DNA of 64,000 nucleotides from Pyruvatibacter sp. HU-CL02332. Its GTDB lineage: Bacteria; Pseudomonadota; Alphaproteobacteria; CGMCC-115125. Both the position numbers and the translations under genes were made by a program. The notes beneath the pieces are model-generated. The model ran no database searches, was not told where the DNA came from, and was given only the letters and a program-made list of their open reading frames with translations. How positions within the stretch are numbered: the stretch's first letter is position 1; every line of letters begins with the position of its first letter. Shown piece after piece: positions 39,083 to 46,733 of this stretch. The stretch is taken from NCBI RefSeq assembly GCF_040362765.1, contig NZ_BAABWK010000001.1:496001-560000 (forward strand), read 5' to 3'.

Positions 39083-39101
39083 CCTCCGGCTTGACCGGAG
39101 G
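39083..39101 (+). repeat. Palindromic repeat, ATCCA subclass
   Basis: The 19-bp core CCTCCGGCTTGACCGGAGG is followed by ATCCA. It is one of eight copies of a CCGG-N-CTTGA-N-CCGG family in this window. Confidence 0.85.
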
Positions 39102-44588: not shown

Positions 44589-45053
44589 CTACGCCAGCCC
44601 CATCCGGCTTCGATAAGCCTCAATGATCGGCGTATAGTCCGCAGGCTGACCATCATAGGTGAGCGCATCTTTTGGTGGGGTGATCCAGTCTATCTTGCTG
44701 CTTTGCCAGATATGCGCCACCGGATACGCCCAGTCTTTGTCATCGAGTGTGCCGCCTCGCAGGGAGTAGATCCCCTGCTCGGGCACGCTGCCGTGGCGGA
44801 TGCGCGTACCGCAGGCCTTGCAAAACTCTCCATAGCGATGGGCTCCGCTTTCAACTGTCCAGTCGACACGCGCGAGGTCCCCCTGCGTGATCTCCATGCT
44901 GTCCTGCAGAATGGCGCAGGCAATGGCAAATGAACTGCCGGCAATCCGCTGACACTCAGTGCAATGGCAGGCATAGGCCATGATGGGAGGCGTGGTCAGC
45001 ACATAGCGCACCGCCCCGCACTGGCACCCACCTTCAAGTTTGATGTCGGACAT
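44589..45053 (-). CDS. GFA family zinc-binding protein
   Basis: A 154-residue protein of the glutathione-dependent formaldehyde-activating enzyme-like family. The zinc-binding cysteines are in GGCQCGAVRY (near 8-17), ACHCTECQ (near 36-43) and CKACGTR (near 91-97). Most members act on unknown small thiols or aldehydes; the name should not be taken as proof of formaldehyde activity. The start is ATG 45053 with GGAGAG upstream. Its 5' end faces the long noncoding region with the candidate RNA. Confidence 0.88.
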   Translation of the reverse strand: MSDIKLEGGCQCGAVRYVLTTPPIMAYACHCTECQRIAGSSFAIACAILQDSMEITQGDLARVDWTVESGAHRYGEFCKACGTRIRHGSVPEQGIYSLRGGTLDDKDWAYPVAHIWQSSKIDWITPPKDALTYDGQPADYTPIIEAYRSRMGLA

Positions 45054-45180
45054 GATGGTCTCTCCCTTTGGTGCAGCAAACATGGGAAGCATGAGCTAAA
45101 GCAACAACTACTTTGTGGGTAATGGACACGAGCACGCGCTCCGTCAGCACACAGGCTGCGGAGGGGGCGTGTCGTCACCT

Positions 45181-45690
45181 CTCCGACCAAGGGGAGTGGG
45201 AGCGCCTCAAGCCCGCCGGGCATGAAAGGCGTGATATCAGACATCTATCAAGTGGCAGCCTCAAAGGCGCTCCACACCGGATGGTCTTCGGCACCTGCCC
45301 ATCCCCATGCGCGCTTGCTATTACCCTGCAACGCATGGGGCACACCCGACGTCCGCGCGCCGCACTTTGGAACTGCGCGGAGGGCGCGGGGCCCGCGTTT
45401 TTACGGCGTGACCAGGCGCGTGACATGTGCCGCCCTTGTGGTATGCGCCCGTTACTCGCGCACCGCACCGGCAGGGTCATCCTCCACGTTCCCAAGGAGG
45501 CTTCGTCTGCCGACTTCCAGGCATCCGCCTTCCCGCACAAGACCGGACGGCCCGGTTTGCCCTTGCAGCGCGAAGGTGACGCCAATTATGCGGGCGCTCA
45601 AAGCACCGGGGATAAGTTTTTGAAAAAAGTCGAAAACGAGTATGTGCAGCGCATCTACACGCACACTCTCCTAATGCGTGTTTTTGGTTG
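45181..45690 (+). ncRNA. Candidate large structured RNA, unidentified
   Basis: The 690 bp between the GFA gene and the DUF2799 gene hold no convincing protein, although frames are open on both strands. Instead there are nested, mostly perfect stems: 45196-45207 with 45265-45275, enclosing two hairpins (45211-45221 and 45232-45250); 45303-45311 with 45332-45340, extended inside by 45315-45318 with 45328-45331; 45352-45358 with 45375-45381; 45415-45419 with 45445-45449, enclosing 45430-45433 with 45438-45441; 45469-45474 with 45507-45512, enclosing 45481-45485 with 45496-45500; 45528-45532 with 45572-45576, enclosing 45538-45546 with 45552-45559. A terminator-like hairpin ends it. One pair needs a G-U wobble on the plus strand (A-C on the minus), favouring the plus strand. 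No RNase P, tmRNA, 6S or SRP signature is visible. Confidence 0.5.
45657..45685 (+). terminator. Terminator-like hairpin at the end of the candidate RNA
   Basis: ACACGCA (45657-45663) pairs with TGCGTGT (45675-45681), followed by TTTT. It has an 11-nt loop. Confidence 0.6.
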
Positions 45691-45745: not shown

Positions 45746-46393
45746 ATGCGCCTGCTTTTCCTTGCTCCCGTCACAGCCGTCACCGCCGTCCTTGTGTCAC
45801 TGACAGCCTGCACCACCATGACCGCCGAACAATGTGTTGCAGCCGACTGGCAGGCGATCGGCTTCGAAGACGCGATGAAAGGCCGCGCCGCAGGCAACGT
45901 CACCCAACATGCCTCAGCCTGTGCGGACCACAGCGTGGCACCCGACATGACAGCCTACGCAACAGGTCACGCAAACGGCGCGCGCGCGTTCTGCACCCCG
46001 GACAACGGGTTCAAGCACGGCCTCTCCGGCGGCACCAACCACAACATCTGCCCGGATGATCTCAGCAACGCCTTCAGCGTGACTTATGAAGCCGGCCGCG
46101 GCCTGCGCACCCGCAAACAGGCAGTGGCCACCGCCAAAAACGACCTCACCACCATCGAGCGCCGCATGCAAAGACTGGAAAATGACTTCACCCACAATGA
46201 GAATGTCCTGGCGACGCTGAACCTCAAGCCCGCCGACCGCGCCAAGGTCCAGGCCGACGTCAACACCGCCCGCAACGAGCACCAGCGCCTGAGCAAACAA
46301 CGCAAACGCGCCCAGGAAAAACTCGTCCGCACCCAGCGCGACCACGACACATACCGCAGTGAAATAGAAGCCCGCTTCTTCACCGGCTCATGA
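45746..46393 (+). CDS. DUF2799 family lipoprotein
   Basis: A 215-residue lipoprotein. The signal peptide ends in a lipobox LTAC with C22 as the lipidated residue. The mature N-terminal half (ADWQAIGFEDAMKGR, CPDDLSNAF, FSVTYEAGRGLR) is characteristic of DUF2799; the C-terminal half (about 128-210) is a charged coiled coil (ERRMQRLENDF, NEHQRLSKQRKRAQEKLVRTQRDHD). It is likely anchored in the outer membrane with the coil in the periplasm. Start ATG 45746 with AGGAG. Just downstream of the candidate RNA terminator. Confidence 0.85.
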   Translation: MRLLFLAPVTAVTAVLVSLTACTTMTAEQCVAADWQAIGFEDAMKGRAAGNVTQHASACADHSVAPDMTAYATGHANGARAFCTPDNGFKHGLSGGTNHNICPDDLSNAFSVTYEAGRGLRTRKQAVATAKNDLTTIERRMQRLENDFTHNENVLATLNLKPADRAKVQADVNTARNEHQRLSKQRKRAQEKLVRTQRDHDTYRSEIEARFFTGS

Positions 46394-46448: not shown

Positions 46449-46733
46449 ATGGCGTTCTTTGTCTACATCATGACCAACCGCAAACACGGCACACTCTACA
46501 TCGGCCACACCGACGACATCCGCCGTCGCGCACACCAGCACCGCACCGGCGAAATTCCCGGCTTCACCAAAACAAACGATCTGAAACAACTGGTCCACCT
46601 GGAACCTTGCGAAAGCCGCGAAGCCGCAAGACACCGCGAACAGCAGCTCAAATACTGGCAACGGTCCTGGAAAATTCAATTGATCGAAAAGAACAACCCG
46701 GACTGGCAGGACCTCTTCGACACCTTGCTCTAA
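46449..46733 (+). CDS. GIY-YIG nuclease family protein, repeat-flanked
   Basis: A 94-residue single-domain GIY-YIG protein of the UPF0213/YhbQ-like kind. FVYIMTN (4-10) and GTLYIGHTDDIRRRAHQH (about 14-31) supply the GIY and YIG strands and catalytic arginine; a glutamate near REAARHREQQLK and the C-terminal KIQLIEKNNPDWQDLFD complete the fold. GIY-YIG nucleases cut DNA with a metal ion. The gene is bracketed by inward-facing copies of the palindromic repeat family, with its own repeat-derived start region, so it may be the mobilising or processing enzyme of these repeats. That link is inference; the domain assignment is firm. Confidence 0.88.
   Translation: MAFFVYIMTNRKHGTLYIGHTDDIRRRAHQHRTGEIPGFTKTNDLKQLVHLEPCESREAARHREQQLKYWQRSWKIQLIEKNNPDWQDLFDTLL

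Follow-up and report, generated by a model that had tools for sequence, protein, structure and literature searches.

Large and multi-copy structured RNAs in bacteria

The known large ornate bacterial RNAs OLE, ROOL, and GOLLD form kissing loops and RNA-only oligomers (PMC12286853). The RNA that we describe here resembles them in being a large, highly structured bacterial noncoding RNA with many conserved loop residues. It differs from them in its length of about 470 nt, in its 8 to 10 dispersed chromosomal copies, in having no Rfam match, and in its occurrence in a single alphaproteobacterial genus, where no associated partner gene was found. The OLE, ROOL, and GOLLD family models gave no match, and the comparison is one of analogy, not of membership, with oligomerization represented in the present RNA by a candidate kissing pair only.

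Other described RNAs resemble it in their genomic distribution. HEARO, the omega RNA of IscB-TnpB elements, is a structured RNA that occurs in many dispersed copies. The present family shares this dispersal; however, the HEARO model did not match it even at an E-value of 5, and no TnpB-type domain (PF07282) scored above the cut-off in the four genomes of the genus, a search that covered IscB through this TnpB-type model alone. A reverse transcriptase (PF00078) is encoded in the genome under study (C1:627289), where it adjoins no copy of the RNA, and is absent from the other three. We rejected a group II intron or retron RNA on this ground: the enzyme is found in one genome and away from all copies. 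Known RNA-guided or retro-type systems are thus unsupported. The known multi-copy trans-acting sRNA families of alphaproteobacteria, whose members are short (approximately 100 to 200 nt), are likewise intergenic and noncoding, but they are shorter than the present RNA, and no Rfam model matches it. REP/BIME repeats are also dispersed and intergenic, and REPs physically adjoin the present copies; these repeats are short, whereas the element described here is a multidomain structure of 430 to 500 nt with strand-specific covariation.

A noncoding locus

The 64,000-nucleotide stretch of Pyruvatibacter sp. HU-CL02332 DNA that we analyzed (the window) contains a 653-bp gap between two divergent genes, a GFA gene on the minus strand (44589-45092) and a DUF2799 gene on the plus strand (45746-46393). 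A sequence-only reading had noted this protein-gene-free gap, at about 690 bp, and proposed that it holds a large structured RNA on the plus strand. A small gene for a GIY-YIG domain protein (46449-46733) lies two genes away. Homology between copies places the whole element, from a promoter-like motif to a 3' tail, at approximately 45115-45614 on the minus strand; the homology starts at TATCCCC and extends some 75 nt beyond the 3' hairpin. Judging by the position of the motif and the extent of the conserved structure, the transcript would be approximately 460 to 470 nt long, with putative ends near 45120 and 45580 on the minus strand. It would lie upstream of the GFA gene and on the same strand. 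We found no clear terminator for the minus-strand RNA. The terminator-like hairpin at 45657, which on a plus-strand reading would mark the 3' end, does not belong to the element: it is located past the 5' end of the RNA as read on the minus strand. This palindrome with its plus-strand T-run (45651-45687) is kept in the relative G003, just beyond the RNA 5' end, and may be a terminator of plus-strand transcription.

Frames of 196 aa (plus strand), 133 aa (plus), and 136 aa (minus) stay open over 400 to 590 nt of the gap, which would favor a protein-coding gene in one of them. None has a Pfam match. Between the window's genome (G000) and G003, three single-base indels shift the frames, the G003 frames carry premature stops, and substitutions are spread evenly over codon positions (21/23/19), without codon bias. 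Protein coding is therefore excluded to near certainty, and the suggestion that these frames are by-products held up in this comparison, which included the check for synonymous change. Over positions 45110-45600 the element is 90.4% identical between G000 and G003, compared with 78.8% for the GFA gene and 80.3% for the DUF2799 gene; the element is under purifying selection.

A dispersed family in a single genus

This intergenic DNA has matches at five places in the genome it comes from, and others in three congeneric genomes. The genus that holds these relatives is "Candidatus Phaeomarinobacter" (Parvibaculales), and all four of its genomes carry intergenic, dispersed copies: nine in G000, eight in G003, nine plus one weak match in G001, and at least five in G002, whose fragmented assembly makes the count a lower bound (two of the relatives are complete genomes). 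Type I copies are approximately 65 to 75% identical in many pairwise comparisons, and 18 of the 19 measure 429 to 439 nt over the aligned element, the exception being G000d, which has an insertion in hairpin P6. Covariance models also revealed type II, a diverged second subfamily whose architecture is the same as that of type I. The earlier idea of a new large RNA family stands, in that the RNA is conserved, covarying, noncoding, approximately 470 to 500 nt long, and without an Rfam match; its multi-copy, dispersed nature and the second subfamily had been missed.

Beyond the genus, an exact pattern search of 84,980 species genomes found no relatives. The R1 covariance model matched the four genus genomes only among 385 genomes of the class, and the R2 model matched only the window's own genome among 398 genomes of the phylum; these broad searches used stricter filters, which weak relatives could escape. 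An origin from a plasmid, phage, or virus was rejected, as there was no match among plasmids, phages, or viral contigs. At the curated cut-off, Rfam 15 gave no match in the window, in agreement with the statement that no known RNA class is recognizable, and under permissive settings, the window copy and copies of types I and II gave only sub-cut-off, mostly microRNA-like chance matches.

Two further sequences deserve mention. In G001, the R2 model weakly matches L161 (C1:603929; 35.6 bits), which has a recognizable CCGGGCCGTCCGG hairpin core and little else; it is perhaps a remnant. In G000, L160 (C2:134902, minus strand) has the CTTATCCCCGC...GTATCCTG motif of copy G000d followed by unrelated hairpin-rich sequence, and may be a decayed copy or a different RNA.

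Covariation and strand

The hairpins listed in the sequence-only reading are present in the sequence. In single-sequence folding, the energy was barely better than that of shuffled sequences (z = -1.8 for the plus strand and -1.9 for the minus strand). Given this and the G+C content, stems alone are unconvincing, and the evidence for the predicted structure comes from comparing copies, not from the stems of a single sequence. RNAalifold on 15 copies gave a consensus of 66 pairs, in 33 of which at least one copy differs on both sides. By counting, two-sided compensatory changes occur in 34 of the 66 pairs, compared with 19.3 ± 2.4 in shuffled alignments and 8 to 13 in slid controls, where partners are shifted by one to three columns and relatedness is kept; because the structure came from the very alignment being tested, the slid control is biased in its favor. 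The number of cells with two-sided changes was 114, versus 41.9 ± 5.9 in shuffles of the 15 copies, and the covariation score was 0.403, versus 0.234 for shuffled alignments and 0.08 to 0.13 for slid structures. Two-sided changes are numerous and are spread over all 13 helices, the long-range ones included; the expected covariation was indeed seen. Most pairs are kept in every copy (52/66 to 65/66 in all but G000d, which keeps 50/61), and there are thus no obviously decayed copies. Conserved structure, compensatory changes, and long-range helices together place the family among large structured noncoding RNAs in the generic sense.

The functional strand is the minus strand of the window. The RNAalifold energy of the alignment is -61.6 kcal/mol on this strand versus -28.2 on the plus strand. 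The minus strand has 159 G-U pairs and 60 A-C mismatches, the plus strand 104 and 107; the asymmetry appeared again on an anchored realignment. G-U is tolerated and A-C avoided on the minus strand only, which a DNA function alone would not bring about. The plus-strand assignment was therefore wrong, and the CCGC/GTGG stem from which it was drawn is not a conserved helix.

Anatomy of the RNA

All features are on the minus strand and are given in window coordinates. The predicted fold begins with a 5' hairpin, P1 (45529-45578; helices 1 to 3), which has an inner CCGG..CCGG and two-sided changes in 8 of its 17 pairs. The central domain is closed by the long-range helix P2 (helix 4), formed by a 5' strand with RNA sequence GCGGATG (45522-45528) and a 3' strand with CATCCG (45278-45284); it is paired in 100% of cells across the 15 copies, with GC replaced by AU in four. 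Nested within P2 are P3, P4, P5, and P8. P3 (45481-45500; helix 6) has the loop TTGGGAACGT and covariation in 4 of 5 pairs, and had been listed earlier as a CCTCC/GGAGG stem. P4 (45442-45464; helices 7 and 8) has the conserved loop GAGTAACGG and covariation in 6 of 7 pairs. P5 (helix 9), the second long-range helix, pairs 45412-45420 with 45340-45348 (ends approximate), covaries in 5 of 7 pairs, and encloses P6 and P7.

P6 (45390-45413; GGTCACGC...GCGGGCC in the RNA) was delimited by sequence, and its arms are, by eye, wholly different yet complementary in G000e (GGCCTGCG/CGCAGGCC) and G002a (GGCTTGCTGA/TCAGCATGCC). The palindrome at 45385-45402, in which an internal terminator or a site of processing had been suspected, is the form that this hairpin takes in the window, not a terminator. 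P7 (45353-45380) has the loop GTTCCAAAG and is the candidate kissing partner of P3. P8 (45303-45340; inner stem helix 10) has a conserved GGTAAY loop and, by eye, alternative complementary arms in other copies; the CCCCATGCG/CGCATGGGG stem noted at 45303/45332 is conserved as this helix. Located 3' of P2 are P9 and the tail. P9, the 3' hairpin (45197-45278; helices 11 to 13; GTGTGGAGCGCC...GGCGCTCCCAC in the RNA), has two-sided changes in 8 of 16 pairs and further arm variants in G000e and in type II copies. The tail (45115-45196) is weakly conserved across copies and, by eye, has a short terminal hairpin.

The loops of P3 and P7 are complementary: 14 copies have GGAAC in P3 along with GTTCC in P7, 13 have neither, and at locus E, by eye, GGGAC/GTCTC replaces GGAAC/GTTCC as a compensatory alternative. 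This pattern suggests a kissing contact between the two loops, within or between molecules. On the other hand, many of the copies counted are closely related and represent few independent events, and the signal could be a coincidence of shared ancestry.

A promoter-like motif

Upstream of the RNA is a motif of fixed length and variable middle, TATCCCCGGT-N15-ATAMT (45585-45614, minus strand; CATAAT at 45585-45590 in the window). The pattern TATCCCCGGTN{14,17}ATAMT had 21 matches in three of the four genus genomes, every one of them 30 nt long; 20 of the 21 are at family copies, and the reversed-pattern control had none. In most copies of G001, the motif takes a related form with TTTCCCC that is one base longer. 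The motif resembles a promoter whose spacer sequence is variable; to our knowledge, its -35 part matches no known sigma consensus. The remaining match (G000:C1:1319465; L152 position 1501) has no RNA and lies upstream of a 170-aa open frame. Apart from this site, a wider regulon of the TTATCCCCGG motif was rejected, as the other sites are, by eye, mostly in coding sequence or 23S rRNA. In G001, a pair of TTATCCCCG sites in inverted orientation, separated by about 80 bp (C1:1968967-1969051; L165/L179), is located upstream of what is, by eye, an XRE-like regulator gene.

Homogenization and locus history

Names of neighboring genes other than Pfam hits are presumed from our own reading of the sequences. 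Several loci are common to more than one species: B (adjoining a histidine phosphatase gene), C, E (adjoining leuB), and four type II loci. Copies within a genome are often more alike than orthologues: G001 has seven near-identical copies, and the type II copies of G003 at 422k and 626k are 99.8% identical, compared with 90 to 93% for orthologous type II pairs. Locus C copies in G000 and G003 are mosaics with type I ends and a type II middle. Copies are therefore homogenized within genomes by recombination. In G001, eight of the nine copies, between 0.68 and 3.02 Mb on the chromosome, lie on one strand; G000 and G003 have copies in both orientations.

Other observations suggest that some copies have spread or moved, which a purely gene-like behavior leaves unexplained. 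At locus A, the window copy lies between monooxygenase-like and GFA genes and the G001 copy between beta-lactamase-like and isocitrate-lyase-like genes, in slots about 3 kb apart in the same syntenic block. Of 28 copies, 18 have REP palindromes in the 150 nt upstream, compared with a background of approximately 0.005 per 150 nt (369 kb of G003; whole-genome, not intergenic only). The REP-like palindromes near copies are of the types CCCCGGACTTGATCCGGGG, CCCTCCGGCTTGACCGGAGGG, and GCGACTTGATCGC; REP-like sites in the window are at 39085, 39164, 39224, 46411, 46764, 46828, and 49177.

Competing interpretations

The main rival to a conventional RNA gene family is a nonautonomous mobile or selfish RNA element whose fold serves its own spread, for example by mobilization in trans with REPs; homogenized copies would then reflect recent copying and gene conversion. 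The locus A slot change and the REP clustering, far above background, keep this interpretation alive, and variable copy number with species-specific copies (G000d and six in G001) and the near-identical G001 set fit it as well. On the other hand, many copies occupy the same position in different species (loci B, C, and E-I), all copies keep the structure, no TnpB-like match exceeded the cut-off, and the reverse transcriptase is found in one of four genomes. A target-site duplication was not found, nor was the empty site of G000d in the 369 kb of G003 searched. We regard this interpretation as a minority possibility that deserves serious attention. Somewhat more doubtful is a lineage-specific RNA that spreads and homogenizes itself as a noncoding mobile element with REPs, its copies being selected as a folded, possibly oligomerizing machine.

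The dispersed, intergenic, palindrome-rich copies adjoining REPs might also be DNA-level repeats, that is, palindromic protein-binding or recombination sites whose stems act as cruciforms or operators; the one-sided tolerance of G-U and avoidance of A-C, which a DNA function would not distinguish by strand, and the covarying long-range helices make this improbable. Slightly less probable still is a cis-acting leader or riboswitch of the downstream gene. The window RNA does precede the GFA gene on the same strand, as other copies precede leuB and the histidine phosphatase gene, but about half of the distinct loci have a downstream gene in the opposite orientation to the RNA, and no shared function links the genes that follow the copies. 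Neighboring genes differ between copies, and the family has no fixed cis neighbor.

On balance, we consider a new trans-acting family of large structured RNAs, with multiple copies maintained by gene conversion, to be the probable explanation. According to this trans-acting model, the window region would be one gene copy, on the minus strand, and each copy would probably have its own promoter and yield an approximately 470-nt transcript. The fold of this RNA would consist of a 5' hairpin, a central multibranched domain closed by the long-range helix, and a 3' hairpin. The conserved apical loops suggest protein binding, and the kissing contact may organize a compact RNP or an RNA oligomer acting in trans. 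The genome keeps 8 to 10 dispersed copies, homogenized by recombination.

Only a few RNAs as large and as structurally complex as this one are known from bacteria, mostly without a settled function. The family described here, from algae-associated marine bacteria, was previously undescribed, and what is new about it is that it is multi-copy, restricted to one genus, and homogenized within genomes. It is an example in which the origin of a large RNA family, and its persistence in many copies, can be examined.
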